A stretch of 64,000 bases of DNA, from positions 16,725-80,724 of the forward strand of contig JAFTGD010000076.1 of assembly GCA_017458065.1 (NCBI GenBank), in the 5' to 3' direction. A program made the translations under genes and the position numbers. The stretch comes from Oscillospiraceae bacterium. Its GTDB lineage: Bacteria > Bacillota > Clostridia > Oscillospirales > Oscillospiraceae. Of the stretch, positions 27,241 through 54,163 are shown one piece after another (position 1 is the stretch's first letter; the number at the start of each line of letters is the position of its first letter). Under the pieces are notes generated by a model. The model had not been told where the DNA came from, did no database searches, and was given only the letters and a program-made list of their open reading frames with translations.

Positions 27241-27468
27241 TCCCGACAGACTGTCTGTGCTTCGCAGTCTCCGTTTGCGCAGGGGCAGTCTTTTGTTTCC
27301 CGCTGTCCCATTTCTTTGGAATTCTGAATTTCACCTGTATCTGATTGACAACGGCGGCCCGTTGTGTTAGAGATAGACCGACGGGGAAATCACCCTGCCG
27401 CAGCAGGTACTGTCCCCATAGTAAGTGTATCCAACATGCAATAATGGAAAGAGAGGACATGACAGATC

Positions 27469-44484: not shown

Positions 44485-45675
44485 ATGAACATGCACCGCA
44501 CATTCCGGCAGCCCCGGTCTGCGCTGTCCCTGATGCTGACCGTTTCCGTGCTGCTCGCATCCGGCGCTTCCGCCTCCGCCGATCTGAGCGATCTTCACAA
44601 GGCCGTGCAGGAGAAGCTGCCCGAGGTCGCAGACAATGTACAGAACGCCATACACGACCGCATTGAGAACAGTGATTTTGACGTGGCTGCTCTACAGGAA
44701 GGCATTTCCTCCTTCAGCAGCGCACTGGAGGAGAGCATCGCTCAGGCCGCTGCGGAGAAGTCCGCTTCCGGGTCTGCTGCCTCTTCCGGTTCCGACGCTT
44801 CCGGCGCCTCCGATGCGGCCGGAACAGCACAGTCCGCACAGAATGACGCTGCCGCGGCAGACACGGGTAACGGCGAGAGCGATCCTCAAACCTCGGAGGA
44901 ATCCCTTCCGTCCAAGATCTCGGGCATTGCCATCGCGGTCCACGACGCCCTCGCGGAGAACCACTACCGGCACGAGACCAATGTCGATGTCCAAAGCGGC
45001 ATAACGCGCGAATTCGACTTCGGAGCAGACAACTCCAAGGGAATCGCCATCGCAAGAGGCGGCGCATCATCGGCCTCGTCGTCCAGCTCCTCCGGCGGTG
45101 CGGAAGCTCCGGCCGCGGCGGAGCCCGCCGCCGGTACCTCCGACAGCTCCGGCAGCAGCTCTGACGACCACAGCATCAACGATACCATCTCCATCTCGCT
45201 TCAGGACCAGGATGGCAACACCCGCATTGTCAATCTCTCGCTGAACGTCGATCATTTGCTCTCCGGGAACACGCTGGACAAGGTGGAGAACATCACCGTC
45301 CTCAGCAACAACACCCATACGATTAAGCTTTTCTCCGGGAACTCCAAGAGCATCGCCATCGCCAGAGGCGGGCTGCTCGGCGGTGGCGCTTCCGCCGCCG
45401 CGGCGGCATCCTCTTCCTCCTCCGGGTCTTCCGCCGCCGCAGCCGCCGCTTCATCCGGACGCACCGTGACCGTGATCCGGAGCGTGGAGGACCCCGCCCC
45501 CGCGGAGAAAGGGCCCGTCGTCACAGCAGCGGCGTCAACAGAAAAGACCATCACACAGGCGACACCTGTGGACACCGGCGACACCTCGGATCCGGGCCGC
45601 TGGACCGCGCTCGCCCTGATCGGGCTCTGCGGCACAGCCGGATGCATCCTGACCCTCCGGAGAAAACGCGGGTAA
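44485..45675 (+). CDS. Secreted Ala/Ser-rich surface protein with repeated IAIARGG motif and variant sorting signal
   Basis: A 396-residue exported protein. The signal peptide ends near residue 33 (GASASA). The segment SKGIAIARGG near residue 186 recurs as SKSIAIARGG near residue 289, each after a beta-rich stretch and each before a Ser/Ala/Gly low-complexity linker. The C-terminus has the order of a wall-sorting signal: TPVDTGDTSDP, a hydrophobic helix (WTALALIGLCGTAGCILTL) and RRKRG. The TG in place of LPxTG resembles the PxTGD variants of gut clostridia. No sortase is encoded in this window. AAGGAGAG precedes the ATG by 9 nt. Confidence 0.7.
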   Translation: MNMHRTFRQPRSALSLMLTVSVLLASGASASADLSDLHKAVQEKLPEVADNVQNAIHDRIENSDFDVAALQEGISSFSSALEESIAQAAAEKSASGSAASSGSDASGASDAAGTAQSAQNDAAAADTGNGESDPQTSEESLPSKISGIAIAVHDALAENHYRHETNVDVQSGITREFDFGADNSKGIAIARGGASSASSSSSSGGAEAPAAAEPAAGTSDSSGSSSDDHSINDTISISLQDQDGNTRIVNLSLNVDHLLSGNTLDKVENITVLSNNTHTIKLFSGNSKSIAIARGGLLGGGASAAAAASSSSSGSSAAAAAASSGRTVTVIRSVEDPAPAEKGPVVTAAASTEKTITQATPVDTGDTSDPGRWTALALIGLCGTAGCILTLRRKRG

Positions 45676-47680: not shown

Positions 47681-48415
47681 TCAGCCTGGATAGGTCGGGA
47701 TCGGGCGGCGCTTATGCTCGCTCCGTGTGTGATAGCGCTCGATCACGGCGAGGTCCTCCTCGCTGGCGGCGCCTTCTGTCAGATAGGTGTCGATGGCGCG
47801 GTAGCTCACGCCCATCTCCTGCTCGTCGGTCTGCCCGTCAAAGAGCCCCGCGGACGGCGCCTTCTCCACGATGCTGAGGGGCGCTTTGAGGTAGCGCAGA
47901 AAAGCCAGCACCTCGGTAGCGGTGAGATCCGCGATGGGGTTAAAATCGTTCGCCCCGTCCCCCCACTTGGTGAAATAGCCCATGTAGCTCTCGCTCCGGT
48001 TCCCCGTTCCGGCGACCAGCCTGCCCTCGGCGGCGGCAATGGTATAGAGCGTCGTCATCCGCAGGCGGGGTGCGATGTTCGCGACGGCGAGATCACTGAG
48101 CTCCGAGATCCCCTCCAGGGCTGCGAGCTCCGCCTCGCGCACCGCGGTGAGATCCACCGTGCGGGTCTCGATCCCGTACTGCTCCGCCAGCGCCCTGCCG
48201 TCGTCGGCGTCCTGGCCGTAGTTGCGTCTGGAGGCGCAGGGCATGATCACGCCCACGGTGTTCTCGCAGGCGGCCTTGCACAAGATCCCGACGAGAGCGC
48301 TGTCCTTCCCGCCGGAGTTGCCGAAGATAATCCCCTTGACGCCGCTGCTCTCCACCAGTCCGCGGATCCAGGCGACGCGCCCTTCGTATTCTCTCTCCCA
48401 GTCTCTGTCGATCAT
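47681..48415 (-). CDS. nadE: NH3-dependent NAD+ synthetase
   Basis: Converts nicotinate adenine dinucleotide to NAD+ with ATP and ammonia. At 244 residues it lacks a glutaminase domain, so it needs free ammonia. The PP-loop is FGNSGGKDSALVG near residue 32. The NaAD site includes ATGTGNRSE-type GTGNRSESYMGYFTKWGD, and the C-terminal HKRRPIPTYPG is typical. GAGGGAC precedes the ATG. A TTGACA promoter lies 39 bases upstream. Confidence 0.94.
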   Translation of the reverse strand: MIDRDWEREYEGRVAWIRGLVESSGVKGIIFGNSGGKDSALVGILCKAACENTVGVIMPCASRRNYGQDADDGRALAEQYGIETRTVDLTAVREAELAALEGISELSDLAVANIAPRLRMTTLYTIAAAEGRLVAGTGNRSESYMGYFTKWGDGANDFNPIADLTATEVLAFLRYLKAPLSIVEKAPSAGLFDGQTDEQEMGVSYRAIDTYLTEGAASEEDLAVIERYHTRSEHKRRPIPTYPG

Positions 48416-48453
48416 AAACGGTCCCTCTTTGATAAACGGTTTTTGGTCTTTCT

Positions 48454-48483
48454 ATTTAACAACAGAAGCGGGGATTTTGTCAA
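48454..48483 (-). promoter_or_regulatory. Promoter of nadE
   Basis: On the minus strand TTGACA (48478-48483), an 18-bp spacer and TTAAAT (48454-48459). Bases 48484-48605, up to the divergent riboswitch promoter, are AT-rich and hold no gene. Confidence 0.65.
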
Positions 48484-48605
48484 GATTCGGCGTCGTTTGC
48501 CATATCTTTTTCAGGCCTTTTTGAGACGAAAAAAGAATGTGTTTCAATTGTTAAAACTATACAAAAAACTGAAGTAAAAAATGTATAAAACGCTCAATTT
48601 TTGGC

Positions 48606-48634
48606 TTGACTTTCGGCTTAGGACCTGATATCAT
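48606..48634 (+). promoter_or_regulatory. Promoter of the riboswitch-controlled nucleoside importer operon
   Basis: TTGACT (48606-48611), a 17-bp spacer and TATCAT (48629-48634). A start near 48641 would give a leader of about 550 nt before the first gene at 49191. Confidence 0.75.
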
Positions 48635-48671
48635 ACACACATCCGGACGAAACGTCCGTTCTGAATATATG

Positions 48672-48742
48672 GTTTCGATATAAACAAATGATATGGATTT
48701 GAAGTTTCTACCCGGACGCCGTAAATGACCGGACTATCGAAC
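48672..48742 (+). promoter_or_regulatory. Purine riboswitch aptamer, guanine/hypoxanthine class
   Basis: All conserved parts of the purine aptamer are present in order. P1 is 48672-48680 with 48735-48742 (one bulged T), followed by J1/2 TAAAC. P2 CAAAT/ATTTG carries loop GATATGG. J2/3 is GTTTCTACC, and the P3 loop is CCGTAAAT (P3 has one mismatch). J3/1 reads ACTAT, so the base that pairs with the ligand is C48734, the guanine/hypoxanthine type rather than adenine. It lies about 30 nt after the predicted transcription start and controls a purine nucleoside importer. Confidence 0.9.
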
Positions 48743-48748
48743 GAATCA

Positions 48749-48803
48749 GGAAGCAGTGTAAGAGGTTTTTGATGTACTGCCGCTTCCGGATTAATTCTTT
48801 TTT
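48749..48803 (+). terminator. Riboswitch expression-platform terminator
   Basis: GGAA plus GCAGT (48749-48757) pair with ACTGC (48776-48780) and TTCC (48784-48787), leaving a 3-nt CGC bulge. The T-run TTTTTT is at 48798-48803. Located 7 nt after the aptamer, it is well placed to end transcription when purine is bound and P1 is stable. Confidence 0.7.
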
Positions 48804-48849
48804 CCACCGGGAACATTTGTCCGTTCCACGGTGTTTTTTGTTTTTGTAT

Positions 48850-49116
48850 CTCGGAGCCGGTGCATTTCTTCTCCATATTTTTCTTTTGAAAAATATCTTT
48901 CATTACATACAGCTCGGAAGTCTGTGCATTCCCTTCCCCATATTGTCTTTTGAAAAATCTTTCTTCCCACGCAACTTGGAAGTCTGTGCATTCCTTCCCC
49001 ATATTTTGCTTTGAAAAATCTTTCTTCCCGCGCATTATGGAGGCCGGTGCATTTCTTCTCCATATATTTTCTTTGAAAATATGTTTTCTTCCCTTGTATC
49101 TCGGAGGCCGGTGCCT
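48850..49116 (+). repeat. 62-bp tandem repeat array in the importer leader (four full units plus a partial)
   Basis: Units begin at about 48850, 48913, 48975, 49036 and 49100 (61-64 bp each), starting with CTCGGAGGCCGGTGCAT or close variants. Each has CTTCTCCATAT and a short hairpin (ATATTTTTC-TTT-GAAAAATAT in unit 1), then CTTTCTTCCC. Units 2 and 3 carry AAGTCTG where the others have AGGCCGG. The array is non-coding on the plus strand. Minus-strand frames through it are open but repetitive and have no start signals. Together with the riboswitch it fills the 775-bp gap before the first gene. Confidence 0.9.
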
Positions 49117-49129
49117 CTACAGATAGACC

Positions 49130-49158
49130 GGAAGTGCCGCTCCCACAACGGCACTTCC
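49130..49158 (+). terminator. Stem-loop just upstream of the nucleoside-binding protein gene
   Basis: GGAAGTGCCG (49130-49139) pairs perfectly with CGGCACTTCC (49149-49158) around a 9-nt loop. There is no T-run, and it ends 18 nt before the AAGGAG site, so it may protect the mRNA 5' end or affect initiation. Confidence 0.55.
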
Positions 49159-49190
49159 ACATAAAAATAATTTTATAAGGAGAACAAAGA

Positions 49191-50378
49191 ATGAAAAAGA
49201 TCATCGCGCTCGCGCTTACCCTGGTCATGATCTTCGCCCTTGCCGTCCCCGTTGCTTCCGCAGACGACGCCAAGGAAGTCAAAGTCGGTTTCATTTTCCT
49301 GCATGATGAGCAGTCCACCTACGACCTCAACTTCATGAAGGCCGCTCAGGAAGCCTGCGAGAAGCTCGGCATTGAGTATGTCAACAAAGTCGGCATTCCC
49401 GAAGGTCAGGAGTGCTACGAGGCCGCCATGGACCTGGTTGACGAGGGCTGCAACATTGTCTTCGCTGACTCCTTCGGCCATGAGGACTACATGATTCAGG
49501 CCGCCATGGAGTGCCCGGATGTGGAATTCTGCCACGCCACCGGTACCCGTGCTCACACCGAGAATCTTGCCAACTACCACAACGCTTTCGCCTCCATCTA
49601 TGAAGGCCGTTACCTCGCCGGCATCGCCGCCGGTCTGAAGGTCAAGGAAATGATCGACAATGGCGACATCACCGCTGATCAGGCCAAGATCGGTTACGTC
49701 GGCGCCTTCACCTATGCCGAGGTTATTTCCGGTTACACCTCCTTCTTCCTGGGCCTCCGCTCTGTCGTTCCCGAAGCCACCATGGAAGTCACCTTCACCG
49801 GTTCCTGGTACGATCTGTCCCTGGAAGCCGAAGGCGCACAGAAGCTGATCGATGACGGCTGTGTCCTCATCAGCCAGCACGCCGACTCCCTCGGCGCCCC
49901 CTCCACCTGCGAAGCCGCCGGCATCCCCAACGTCTCCTACAACGGCTCCACCATCGACGCCGGCCCCAACACCTTCATCGTTTCCTCCCGCATCAACTGG
50001 GAGCCCTACTTTGAGTACATTATCGGTCAGGTTCAGAACGGCGAAGCCATTGACGCTGACTGGACCGGCACCATCGAGACCGGCTCTGTCGAGCTCACCG
50101 ATGTGAACGCCGCTGTTGCCGCTGAGGGTACTGTTGAAGCCATCGAGGCCGCCAAGGCCGCTTTCGCCGCCGGCGAGCTGCATGTCTTCGACACCGCCGC
50201 CTTCACCGTGGATGGCGCTGCTCTTGAGAGCTACATGGCCGATGTCGATACCGATCCCGCCTATGAAGGCGACACCGAAGTCGTCGCTGACGGTTACTTC
50301 CACGAGTCCGAGTTCCGCTCCGCTCCGTACTTTGACATCCAGATCGACGGCATCACTCTGCTTGACACCGCATTCTAA
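49191..50378 (+). CDS. bmpA: BMP-family nucleoside-binding protein of an ABC importer
   Basis: Receptor for purine nucleosides (PnrA/BmpA family), 395 residues. The signal peptide is cut after VASA, before DDAKEVKVGFIFLHDEQSTYD; no lipobox is present, although most family members are lipoproteins. Family features are IVFADSFGHEDYMIQAA, NAFASIYEGRYLAGIAAGL, GYVGAFTYAEVISGYTSFFLG and CVLISQHADS. AAGGAG precedes the ATG. The guanine-class riboswitch upstream supports guanosine or inosine as ligand. It is first in an operon with an ATPase and two permeases. Confidence 0.93.
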   Translation: MKKIIALALTLVMIFALAVPVASADDAKEVKVGFIFLHDEQSTYDLNFMKAAQEACEKLGIEYVNKVGIPEGQECYEAAMDLVDEGCNIVFADSFGHEDYMIQAAMECPDVEFCHATGTRAHTENLANYHNAFASIYEGRYLAGIAAGLKVKEMIDNGDITADQAKIGYVGAFTYAEVISGYTSFFLGLRSVVPEATMEVTFTGSWYDLSLEAEGAQKLIDDGCVLISQHADSLGAPSTCEAAGIPNVSYNGSTIDAGPNTFIVSSRINWEPYFEYIIGQVQNGEAIDADWTGTIETGSVELTDVNAAVAAEGTVEAIEAAKAAFAAGELHVFDTAAFTVDGAALESYMADVDTDPAYEGDTEVVADGYFHESEFRSAPYFDIQIDGITLLDTAF

Positions 50379-50391
50379 TTGATCTCCTTGT

Positions 50392-50473
50392 GGGTAACCC
50401 CGATTCTCTCGGGGTTACCCATTGATGCTGCAAAGGGCAGCGCAGTGACTTTCGCCGCCGCGCTGCCCTTTGC
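50392..50473 (+). terminator. Double stem-loop between the binding protein and ATPase genes
   Basis: A perfect 10-bp stem (50392-50401 with 50411-50420) is followed by a perfect 14-bp stem (50430-50443 with 50460-50473) and then GGCATTATTGCCCTTTT. Two strong hairpins here suggest that most transcripts stop after the binding protein. Confidence 0.7.
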
Positions 50474-50538
50474 GGCATTATTGCCCTTTTCCGCACATTC
50501 CGCTGTTTTCGCTTTTACACTATGAATGAAGGAGGGTG

Positions 50539-52074
50539 ATGTCCTTGGACAACAAAACCGCCGCAGTCAAGATGCGAAACATCACCAAAAGCTTCGGCCC
50601 CGTCCTTGCCAACGACAAGGTCTGGCTGGATATTTACCGCGGGGAGATTCTCGCCCTGCTGGGGGAAAACGGCAGCGGCAAGACCACGCTGATGAACATG
50701 CTCTCCGGGATCTATTTCCCCGATGAGGGCACCATCAGCATCGACGGCAGAGACGTGGTCATCCGCTCGCCGAAGGACGCCTTTGACCTCGGCATCGGCA
50801 TGATCCACCAGCACTTCAAGCTGGTCGACGTGCTGACCGCCGCCGAGAACATCGTCCTCGGGCTCCCCGGCAAGCTGGATCTGAAGGCCGCTTCCGAGAA
50901 GATCCGCGGGATCTGCAGTGCCTACGGCTTTGAGGTCGACCCCGACCAGAAGATCTACGACATGTCCGTCTCCCAGAAACAGACCGTCGAGATCGTCAAG
51001 GTGCTCTACCGCGGCGCGGACATCCTGATCCTCGACGAGCCCACCGCCGTTCTGACCCCGCAGGAGACCGACAAGCTTTTTGCCGTTCTGCGCAACATGC
51101 GTGACGACGGAAAGGCCATCGTCATCATCACCCACAAGATGCACGAGGTGGAAGCGCTCTCCGACCGGGTCGCCATCCTCCGCCACGGTCAGTTCATCGG
51201 CGACATGCCCACAAAGCAGACCAACGCCCAGGAAATGACCAATATGATGGTCGGCCATGCGGTCACGCTGAACATCGACCGCCCCGAGCCGGTCAACCCG
51301 AAGCCCCGCATCGAAGTCAAGGGCCTCACGGTCCGCAGCATCGACGGGATCCTGAAGCTGGAGGACGTCAGCTTTACGGCCAACTCCGGCGAGATCCTCG
51401 GCATCGCGGGCATCTCCGGCTGCGGGCAGAAAGAGCTGCTGGAATCCATCGCCGGTCTGCAGCCGGTGGAGGCGGGCAGCATATCTTACATTGAGGACGA
51501 CGGCACCCGGGAAGAGCTGATCGGCAAGGATCCCCTCAGCATTGCCGAGATGGGCGTCAGCCTCTCCTTCGTCCCGGAGGACCGCCTCGGCATGGGCCTT
51601 GTCGCCAACATGGACCTGGCGGACAACATGATGCTGCGCTCCTTCCGCAAGGGCCACTCCCTTTTCACCGACCGCCGCACGCCGAAGGAACTGGCGCAGG
51701 CGGTGGTGCAGAACCTGGAGGTCAGCACCCCCGGCATCTCGACCCCGGTGCGCCGGCTCTCCGGCGGCAACGTGCAGAAGGTCCTTGTCGGCCGTGAGAT
51801 TTCGTCCGCACCGACGGTGCTGCTCACCGCCTATGCGGTCCGCGGCCTGGATATCAACTCGTCCTATACGATCTATGACCTGATCAACAAGCAGAAGGCC
51901 GAAGGCGTCGCCATTATCTATGTTGGCGAAGACCTGGACGTCCTTCTGGAACTGGCGGACCGGATCCTGGTTCTCTGCGGCGGCAAGGTCAGCGGGATCA
52001 TTCCCGGCCGCGGCGCCAACAAGCGCGACGTCGGCCTGATGATGACAAAACTGGGAGGAAAAGCCGATGAATAA
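50539..52074 (+). CDS. nupA: Nucleoside ABC transporter ATPase with two nucleotide-binding domains
   Basis: ATPase of the BMP-type importer, about 511 residues, with two fused domains as in RbsA-like proteins. Domain 1 is intact: Walker A GENGSGKT near residue 43, signature MSVSQKQ, Walker B ILILDEPTAVLTP, and H-loop ITHKMHE. Domain 2 is degenerate: its P-loop is GISGCGQKE without the GK-S/T pair, and Walker B is VLLTAYAVRGLD, although LSGGNVQK is kept. Start choice is uncertain: ATG 50539 lies 3 nt after AAGGAGG, while TTG 50545 has ideal spacing. The permease gene overlaps its end by 8 nt. Confidence 0.92.
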   Translation: MSLDNKTAAVKMRNITKSFGPVLANDKVWLDIYRGEILALLGENGSGKTTLMNMLSGIYFPDEGTISIDGRDVVIRSPKDAFDLGIGMIHQHFKLVDVLTAAENIVLGLPGKLDLKAASEKIRGICSAYGFEVDPDQKIYDMSVSQKQTVEIVKVLYRGADILILDEPTAVLTPQETDKLFAVLRNMRDDGKAIVIITHKMHEVEALSDRVAILRHGQFIGDMPTKQTNAQEMTNMMVGHAVTLNIDRPEPVNPKPRIEVKGLTVRSIDGILKLEDVSFTANSGEILGIAGISGCGQKELLESIAGLQPVEAGSISYIEDDGTREELIGKDPLSIAEMGVSLSFVPEDRLGMGLVANMDLADNMMLRSFRKGHSLFTDRRTPKELAQAVVQNLEVSTPGISTPVRRLSGGNVQKVLVGREISSAPTVLLTAYAVRGLDINSSYTIYDLINKQKAEGVAIIYVGEDLDVLLELADRILVLCGGKVSGIIPGRGANKRDVGLMMTKLGGKADE

Positions 52075-53167
52075 CAAAGCACACAATCCGCTTTTCCACG
52101 TCTCCAGACGCGCTGCGCTCCCCTGGTACCGCGCCTGGGGCATCCGGGCGGCAGCTCTGCTTATTGCGCTGCTCGCCTGCGCCCTGATCACGAACCTCAT
52201 CACCGGGCTCAATCCTCTGGCAGTTTACGCCACGATCTGGCAGGGCTCCTTCGGCAGCGCAAGGCGCGCCTGGGTCCTGTTCCAGAACATTGCCATGCTG
52301 CTGTGCGTGTCCCTTGCTATCACCCCCGCCTTCCGCATGCGCTGCTGGAATCTGGGCGGAGACGGCCAGATGCTGATCGGCTGCCTTGCAACCACCGCCT
52401 GCATGATCCTGCTCGGGGGCAAGCTGCCGAACTGGGTCGTCATCCTCTGCATGCTGGTCTCCAGCATCCTGGCAGGCGCCATCTGGGCCGCCATCCCGGC
52501 CATTTTCAAGGCCAAGTGGAACACCAACGAGACGCTTTTCACCCTGATGATGAACTATGTGGCCACACAGCTGGTCGCCTACTACATCATCATCTGGGAG
52601 GTCCCCAAAGGCGCCGGCAAAATCGGCATCATCAACCAGAGCACGCAGGCCGGCTGGCTTCCGCAGATCGGCAGCTACAAGTACCTGCTGAACATCATTG
52701 TCGTCGCGCTGGTCTGCGTTGCGATGTATGTCTACCTCAACTATTCCAAGCACGGCTATGAGATTGCCGTTGTCGGCGAAAGCGAGCGCACCGCCCGTTA
52801 CGTCGGCATCAAGGTGGAGCGCGTTATTGTCCGGACGATGCTGCTCTCCGGCGCGGTCTGCGGTCTTGCAGGCATGCTGCTGGTCGGCGGTACGGAGCAC
52901 ACCCTGACGACGACCATCACATCAGGCCGCGGCTTTACTGCCGTCATGGTCTCATGGCTGGCCAAGTTCAACCCCATCTGGATGGTGCTGACAAGCTTCC
53001 TGCTGGTCTTCCTGGAGAGGGGTGCAGGCCAGATTGCCACCAGCTTTGGGCTGAGCTCCTCTTATGCCGATATCCTGACCGGTCTGATCCTGTTCTTCAT
53101 CATCGGCAGCGAGTTCTTCATCAATTACCAGATCAACTTCCGCCACGCCGCGGGGAAGGAGGACTAA
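52067..53167 (+). CDS. nupB: Nucleoside ABC transporter permease (first)
   Basis: Integral membrane subunit of 366 residues with about ten predicted helices, of the BPD_transp_2 (branched-chain/ribose/nucleoside) type. Family segments seen are MRCWNLGGDGQMLIGCL, TLMMNYVATQLVAYY and YEIAVVGESERTARYVGIKVERV, the last close to the cytoplasmic coupling region. Its ATG lies inside the ATPase gene (8-nt overlap) after GGGAGG, and its stop is 3 nt before the next permease, so the operon is tightly coupled. Confidence 0.92.
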   Translation: MNNKAHNPLFHVSRRAALPWYRAWGIRAAALLIALLACALITNLITGLNPLAVYATIWQGSFGSARRAWVLFQNIAMLLCVSLAITPAFRMRCWNLGGDGQMLIGCLATTACMILLGGKLPNWVVILCMLVSSILAGAIWAAIPAIFKAKWNTNETLFTLMMNYVATQLVAYYIIIWEVPKGAGKIGIINQSTQAGWLPQIGSYKYLLNIIVVALVCVAMYVYLNYSKHGYEIAVVGESERTARYVGIKVERVIVRTMLLSGAVCGLAGMLLVGGTEHTLTTTITSGRGFTAVMVSWLAKFNPIWMVLTSFLLVFLERGAGQIATSFGLSSSYADILTGLILFFIIGSEFFINYQINFRHAAGKED

Positions 53168-53170
53168 ACC

Positions 53171-54163
53171 ATGTTTGATTTTGTTTCCTTCATTCCCAGG
53201 GCCATCATGCAGGGGATCCCGCTGCTTTGCGGCAGCACCGGTGAAACGCTGACCGAAAAATCCGGCAACCTGAACCTCGGTATTCCCGGCATCATGTATG
53301 TGGGCGCCATCAGCGGCGTCATGGGCGCGTTCTTCTATGAGCAGGCCGTCGGTCCTGCCAACATCAGTCCCTTCCTGGCCATCGCCATTCCTCTGCTCTG
53401 CTGCATGCTGGGCTCCTTCCTGATGGGCCTGCTCTACTGCTTCCTGACGGTCTCGCTCCGGGCAAACCAGAACGTCACCGGTCTTGCGCTGACCACCTTC
53501 GGCGTCGGCTTCGGCAACTTCTTCGGCGGTTCCCTCATCAAGCTCTCGGGCAGCGATGTCCCGGCCATCGTTCTCTCGGCTACCAGCAGCTACTTCCGCA
53601 GGACGCTGCCCTTCGCCTCCACCACCGGCTGGTTCGGAAAAATCTTTCTGAGCTATGGCTTCCTAGCGTATCTCGCCGTGATTCTCTCTCTGGTTGCAGC
53701 CTATATTCTCAAGCGCACCCGGGTCGGCCTGCATCTGCGGGCTGTCGGCGAGAGCCCCAACACCGCCGATGCCGCCGGCATCAATGTCGGCCGCTACAAA
53801 TACGTCGCCACCTGCACCGGCTCGATGATCGCGGGTCTCGGCGGCCTGTATTACATCATGGACTACACCTCCGGCATCTGGTCCAGCGACGCCTTCGGCG
53901 ACCGCGGCTGGCTTGCCATCGCGCTGGTCATCTTCACGGTCTGGCGGCCCAATGTGGGCGTGCTCGCCTCCTTCCTCTTCGGCGGCCTGTACATCCTGCA
54001 CATGTATATCCCCTCCGGCATGAACCTTGCCATCAAAGAGCTCTACAAGATGATCCCCTATGTGGTCACGATCGTGGTGCTGGTCATCTCCAGCCTGCGC
54101 AACAAGCGCGAGAACCAGCCGCCCGCCTCGCTCGGCCTCGCCTTCTTCCGCGAAGAGCGCTGA
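53171..54163 (+). CDS. nupC: Nucleoside ABC transporter permease (second)
   Basis: Partner permease of 330 residues, same superfamily. The N-terminal ETLTEKSGNLNLGIPGIMYVGA block is the hallmark of the YufQ/NupC-type subunit, and the coupling segment reads VGLHLRAVGESPNTADAAGINV. AAGGAGG lies 8 nt before the ATG, within the end of the first permease gene. It ends the operon, and a hairpin follows 52 nt later. Confidence 0.93.
   Translation: MFDFVSFIPRAIMQGIPLLCGSTGETLTEKSGNLNLGIPGIMYVGAISGVMGAFFYEQAVGPANISPFLAIAIPLLCCMLGSFLMGLLYCFLTVSLRANQNVTGLALTTFGVGFGNFFGGSLIKLSGSDVPAIVLSATSSYFRRTLPFASTTGWFGKIFLSYGFLAYLAVILSLVAAYILKRTRVGLHLRAVGESPNTADAAGINVGRYKYVATCTGSMIAGLGGLYYIMDYTSGIWSSDAFGDRGWLAIALVIFTVWRPNVGVLASFLFGGLYILHMYIPSGMNLAIKELYKMIPYVVTIVVLVISSLRNKRENQPPASLGLAFFREER

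Follow-up and report, generated by a model that had tools for sequence, protein, structure and literature searches.

What is a tandem array of 62-bp units doing in a leader that already carries a riboswitch, and does the number of its units matter to the gene behind it? The locus lies within a 64,000-nucleotide stretch of an Oscillospiraceae genome, here called the window, in which the initial annotation had described a guanine-class riboswitch followed by a minisatellite in the same leader, and had suggested that changes in repeat number could confer phase-like variation of nucleoside uptake. Among the titles and abstract openings listed by literature searches, none describes tandem repeats within the leader of a riboswitch. 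Comparisons were made within a sample of the genus comprising 102 genomes, one per species, in which the genome of the window is denoted G000.

In order, and throughout on the + strand, the leader comprises a promoter-like site, a purine aptamer, two terminator-like hairpins (T1 and T2), four repeat units, two further hairpins (P-A and P-B), a ribosome-binding site read as AAGGAG (49177–49182) and the ATG at 49191. The promoter expected ahead of the aptamer was recovered by motif scan as TTGACT-17-TATCAT (48606–48634), with TG before the second hexamer and aligned counterparts in five relatives; promoter-like sites number four across 48400–50600, compared to 1.7 in shuffles (sd 1.3). The riboswitch call was borne out by a match to Rfam RF00167 at 48656–48756, covering the aptamer in full (model positions 1–102) and scoring 61.8 bits against a gathering threshold of 37, and this is the single purine riboswitch match in the whole genome. 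The aptamer keeps GUUUCUACC and GGACUA in the cmscan alignment, from which its class is read as guanine, under the rule that U51 and C74 in J2/3 and J3/1 mark the guanine class. T1 (48749–48787) shares the final bases of the Rfam match, folds at −14.0 kcal/mol and runs into a T-rich tract, with 6 U in the next 8 bases; T2 (48804–48840) folds at −14.6 kcal/mol before a T6 tract, with 7 U in the next 8 bases, and is similar in close relatives. A terminator consensus scan flagged T2 only, so T1 is called on its own fold and U tract, and sites of this kind are no commoner than in shuffles (2 versus 2.3). Hence, a terminator-like hairpin does follow the riboswitch as annotated, but there are two of them rather than one. 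Forced and P1-blocked folds of the aptamer region gave no clear antiterminator, and the switching mode is therefore that presumed from the family.

The gene behind the leader (49191–50378) encodes, as the initial annotation had it, a nucleoside-binding protein of the Bmp/PnrA type (Pfam PF02608, E 1.6e-25), the only one found in the genome. Domain searches place an ABC transporter ATPase (50536–52074) and two BPD_transp_2 permeases (52067–54163) after it, all on the + strand and probably in the same operon. The yxjA riboswitch of Bacillus subtilis also controls a gene of the nucleoside-transport type, as outlined in PMC9756952 (riboswitch variants are the subject of PMC9295807). The window follows the RF00167 pattern in having a full-length aptamer and then terminator-like hairpins before a nucleoside-transport gene, but departs from the usual arrangement in having two such hairpins in a row, followed by a tandem array and by two more hairpins ahead of the gene. 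Elsewhere in the window, a secreted-looking protein (44485–45675, + strand) was seen by eye to carry SKGIAIARGG and SKSIAIARGG within stretches rich in Ser and Ala, and to end in an anchor-like C-terminus; an NCBIfam search with this protein gave no match.

The array itself stands well clear of chance: TRF reports 48860–49093 with period 61, 3.7 copies and a score of 248, and among 1000 dinucleotide shuffles of 48560–49190 a single one contained any array of period at least 20 and score at least 30, at 77. Cut by repeat, it comprises four units of 61–64 bp, W1 (48844–48906), W2 (48907–48970), W3 (48971–49031) and W4 (49032–49093), lying beyond the riboswitch terminators; the four and a half units originally counted are thus accounted for, the trailing half unit being the 5′ arm of hairpin P-A. 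The window units are 72–89% identical with gaps left out (mean 81%), which makes them diverged rather than near-identical. Repeat counts rest on draft genome assemblies; because the units have diverged, collapse of array copies in such assemblies would seem unlikely. A look elsewhere in the genome for the unit, which the initial annotation had proposed, found no copies in the 3.6-Mb draft (83 contigs, 96% complete): none of the nine other matches is better than E 0.125, and one of these is the flank of the locus itself. A dispersed element or MITE is rejected on the same grounds; the Porphyromonas gingivalis minisatellite described in PMC4596501, which is likewise a set of tandem units in a bacterial genome, sits inside a MITE, unlike the window unit with no dispersed copies found. 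A protein-coding repeat was rejected by reasoning, since the in-register spacings (62, 61 and 187) are not multiples of three and overlapping open frames cannot therefore encode a repeated peptide. There is little support for a transcription start inside the array, where one weak + strand site (49011–49038) matches 9 of 12 positions and has no TG. A 23-base pattern designed for strain variants of the array had no matches among viral contigs.

Immediately after the array, and absent from the first reading of the locus, is P-A (49097–49125; UAUCU-CG-GAGGC-CGGU-GCCUC-UAC-AGAUA), which shares its 5′ arm with the unit; it precedes the 10-bp stem-loop P-B (49130–49158, by fold), which the first reading had rightly noted. 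Both hairpins are conserved in nine species. Across the nine sequences of P-A, 90 of 90 cells pair and three of the ten pairs show changes in both partners; its covariation score of 0.311 was reached by none of 500 shuffles, while 31 of 500 reached the count of double-changed pairs and 152 of 500 that of pair types. The outer helix is invariant and hence outside the reach of covariation. A model of P-A (R1) found strong matches (E 5.5e-11 or better) in nine of the 102 genomes, each in this leader, these being the nine from which R1 was built, with strict filters under which absences are not firm; three more matches were weak (E 0.016–0.076). A GTATCT...AGATAGAC stem at 27334–27378 (+ strand) of the window, before a gene with a signal-like start, is a weak R1 match of 16.5 bits. 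In an Rfam search of the leader at E up to 5, everything besides the aptamer was sub-threshold and nothing matched P-A; cow-rumen-4, lying over P-B and the ribosome site, scored 19.7 bits against a threshold of 48.5, and a known RNA family for P-A or P-B is rejected accordingly.

A looser model (R2), made from the pre-gene hairpins of 13 leaders, pairs in 89.7% of cells and has a covariation score of 0.194, which no shuffle of 500 reached. It gave 34 matches in 32 of the 102 genomes, 26 of them following a same-strand purine aptamer at a distance of 52–212 bases, although at least 11 of these 26 went into building R2. The P-A of the window is not among the R2 matches, so that its kinship with the looser hairpins depends on G010 and G053, two genomes that are matched by both models and helped to build both. 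Looser hairpins were observed to precede the ribosome site in many purine-riboswitch leaders. One of the eight R2 matches outside those 26, in G010 (L170, G010:C267, 6463–6498), is, by eye, a similar CCGC..GCGGTTTAGATAA hairpin before a ferredoxin-like gene. Conserved and co-varying, P-A looks, from the sequences compared, more functional than the array.

When the stretch 48780–49165 was used as a query against the 102 genomes, 15 matched with E no higher than 0.01, and the leaders read from these included just one other array, that of G072, with two units; the G072 leader is identical to that of the MAG RGIG3778 (L041). Among the nine species with P-A, the window species has four units and G072 two; G093 lacks them, save perhaps for a doubtful half unit, and the remaining six species have no array and short, variable spacers. 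The gene tree groups G000, G072 and G093 at 100/100 and places G072 and G093 as sisters at 81/89; if this branching holds, the array was either lost in G093 or gained twice. We favour loss over double gain, although the branch is not strong. The candidate remnant in the G093 spacer (TCGGAA..CTGT..TTCCC) is doubtful because 91 of 1000 of its own shuffles matched the array as well, and because the spacer of G028 did about equally well (98 of 1000 shuffles); an ancestral array in all three species consequently depends on the tree.

To place the array among riboswitch leaders generally, the leaders of 83 genomes were passed through TRF at a score of at least 40. These represent 82 of the 83 genomes with an RF00167 match, plus G003; the contig-end match of G076 was left out, five extra RF00167 matches (two in G008 and one each in G026, G064 and G069) also fell outside the census, and two of the 83 stretches were short, at 424 and 476 bases. 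TRF returned 64 rows, 61 of which lie wholly downstream of the start codon, while the other three are the arrays of G000, G072 and G047. Noncoding arrays thus occur in three of 83 leaders, with two origins, and the view that an array in a riboswitch leader is unusual stands; an earlier census of 44 leaders, from partly the same and partly named genomes, contained only the arrays of the window and L041. The G047 array (L198, G047:C48:20300-21159, approximately 169–290 on the riboswitch strand) has 3.0 copies of 41 bp and a TRF score of 174. What it repeats is the riboswitch terminator's 3′ arm with its U tract, and it is unrelated to the array of the window. Short in-gene repeats were seen at the bmpA coding starts of many relatives (for example L185, L187 and L193), contributing the 61 TRF rows over the 83 stretches, and are read as Ala/Pro/Glu linkers behind the signal region. 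At approximately 1–350 of L042, the riboswitch region recurs in inverted orientation at the end of the contig, giving sub-threshold Rfam matches, perhaps through an assembly fold-back.

How fast the array changes was judged against its surroundings. Units of the window species are 73–80% identical to those of G072/L041 (mean 77%), a divergence of 20–27%, gaps being left out in both figures. Between G000 and G072, 43 of 181 fourfold sites differ (24%), as do 26% of the 170 bases that precede the aptamer and include the promoter. The aptamer differs by 4%, T1 by 8%, T2 by 3% and P-A/P-B by 6% in the same comparison, and two pairs with G093 gave up to 8%, 9%, 7% and 5% respectively. On the unit figures, drift of the array is close to the neutral rate, with its neighbours held. 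When the spacers of G000 and G072 are aligned whole, mismatch outside gaps is 14% with 132 gap positions, which speaks for somewhat slower drift of the array; this value perhaps arises from the aligner picking the best-matching units, and we regard the unit-by-unit figures as fairer. Identity averages higher within species (81% in the window; 95% for the L041 pair) than between them (77%), the pattern that turnover of units would produce.

We consider the most probable explanation, with a probability of roughly two in three, to be that the array arose by tandem duplication, under almost no selection, in the permissive spacer that separates the terminator from the pre-gene hairpins. This reading is favoured by the agreement of unit divergence with fourfold and upstream sites, the higher mean unit identity within species than between them, the copy numbers of four, two and none among three close species, the short and variable spacers of the six other species with P-A, the loss of the A/T hairpin from half of the window units (see below), and the unrelated array at a similar place in G047. 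Counted against it are the whole-spacer mismatch, the paired hairpin changes and the fold scores of units and leader considered below, the identity of W2 and W4, whose 72% falls below that of every pair of units taken from the two species, and a difference of 17% in the 32 bases before the start codon between G000 and G072, which means that not all sequence outside the array is held. On this explanation the guanine-type riboswitch would control the nucleoside-uptake genes by transcription termination, as its family suggests. Tandem duplication of spacer between T2 and P-A/P-B, presumably by slippage where changes in length are tolerated, would have made the array, capturing the P-A 5′ arm as well, probably ahead of the split between the window species and G072; since then its copy number would have altered and its sequence drifted roughly as neutral DNA does. 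In read-through mRNA it would mainly be additional 5′-UTR length, with regulation staying with the riboswitch, and P-A and P-B probably keep the coding start accessible or protect the message. Anatomy, species distribution and divergence are observed, and from them we infer that the array lacks a strong function; its appearance is that of a spacer undergoing slow change, not of a fast on-off switch.

The best rival holds that the units are serial weak attenuators, the A/T hairpin and U-rich tract of each slowing or terminating RNA polymerase, such that copy number sets read-through. Every unit had been credited with such a hairpin (H2), but only W1 and W4 fold one, W2 and W3 giving 0.0 kcal/mol, and its loss from two of four units also tells against the proposed part in pausing or RNase cleavage. 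Where present (W1, W4, M1 and M2), H2 has −4.0 to −9.6 kcal/mol and 5–6 U in the next 8 bases, as an attenuator might, but its stems consist almost wholly of A/U pairs and are less stable than those of T1 and T2. Of six units, three outdo most shuffles in folding (W1, z −2.9; M1, −2.4; M2, −5.4), the whole units W2 and W3 do no better than shuffles (z 0.26 and 0.41), and the whole leader, which includes the riboswitch, P-A and P-B, has z −3.4. By eye, paired changes distinguish U-A in W1 from C-G in L041 within H2, and GGAAG/CTTCC from GGAGG/CCTCC within H1, which favours attenuation; template-switch correction at palindromes can yield paired changes, and these could hence have arisen without structural selection, although weak structural selection on the units is possible. 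The G047 array adds to the case, since it repeats a terminator arm with its U tract and its two extra arms can still pair with the 5′ arm of the terminator (−15.0 versus −20.7 kcal/mol). With sequence drift at about the neutral rate also against it, we regard serial attenuation as unlikely.

A broader proposal, which we consider improbable, is that across the genus the post-terminator stretch is a repeated birthplace of arrays that copy one hairpin arm, the P-A arm here and the terminator arm in G047, and that the number of arms sets the leakiness of the switch. If true, extra arms and U tracts would offer RNA polymerase several further chances to stop, and arm number would act over evolutionary time. 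Distinctly improbable is an RNase entry site or mRNA-stability spacer, in which the leader is cut in the U-rich array and the message left capped by P-A and P-B: the conservation of both hairpins in nine species and the failure of W2 and W3 to fold better than shuffles would suit it, but species without an array keep P-A and P-B, so the array is dispensable for that purpose.

The original suggestion for this locus, phase-variable tuning through fast gain and loss of repeats, is in our judgement very unlikely. Copy number does differ among related species, but the change was seen only between species that differ at 18–24% of fourfold sites, and the units of a contingency locus would be near-identical and prone to slip, whereas these are 72–89% identical, which makes them ill suited to frequent slippage. 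The Helicobacter pylori tlpB leader, in which a G-repeat of variable length is read by the small RNA RepG (as outlined in PMC8295292), similarly places a repeat inside a 5′ leader; however, that is a simple G repeat under a small RNA, compared to a diverged 62-bp array with no sign of fast change. It is equally hard to credit that the units are decoys, rivals of the P-A 5′ arm for pairing with the 3′ arm, through which P-A would be turned on or off. The units do begin with that arm or a worn form of it, but their pairing with the 3′ arm is too weak, the window's own arm pairing at −12.7 compared to −1.9 to −10.3 kcal/mol and that of L041 at −10.0 compared to −5.9 kcal/mol, before any long-loop cost, and the idea was rejected. 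A Rho loading site in the C- and U-rich array, where the C/G ratio reaches 2.56 per 78 bases, is nearly excluded, because the Rho RNA-binding domain PF07497 was found in none of 41 genus genomes searched, this one included, against nine of 14 named genomes in a control search.

The leaders described here form a natural series, with four, two and no units behind related riboswitches and before related genes, in which the effects of leader length and of extra hairpins would be directly measurable. The comparison separates the parts that are held after the riboswitch (T2, P-A and P-B) from the part that drifts, the array, and it points to a co-varying pre-gene hairpin that reaches no Rfam threshold here.
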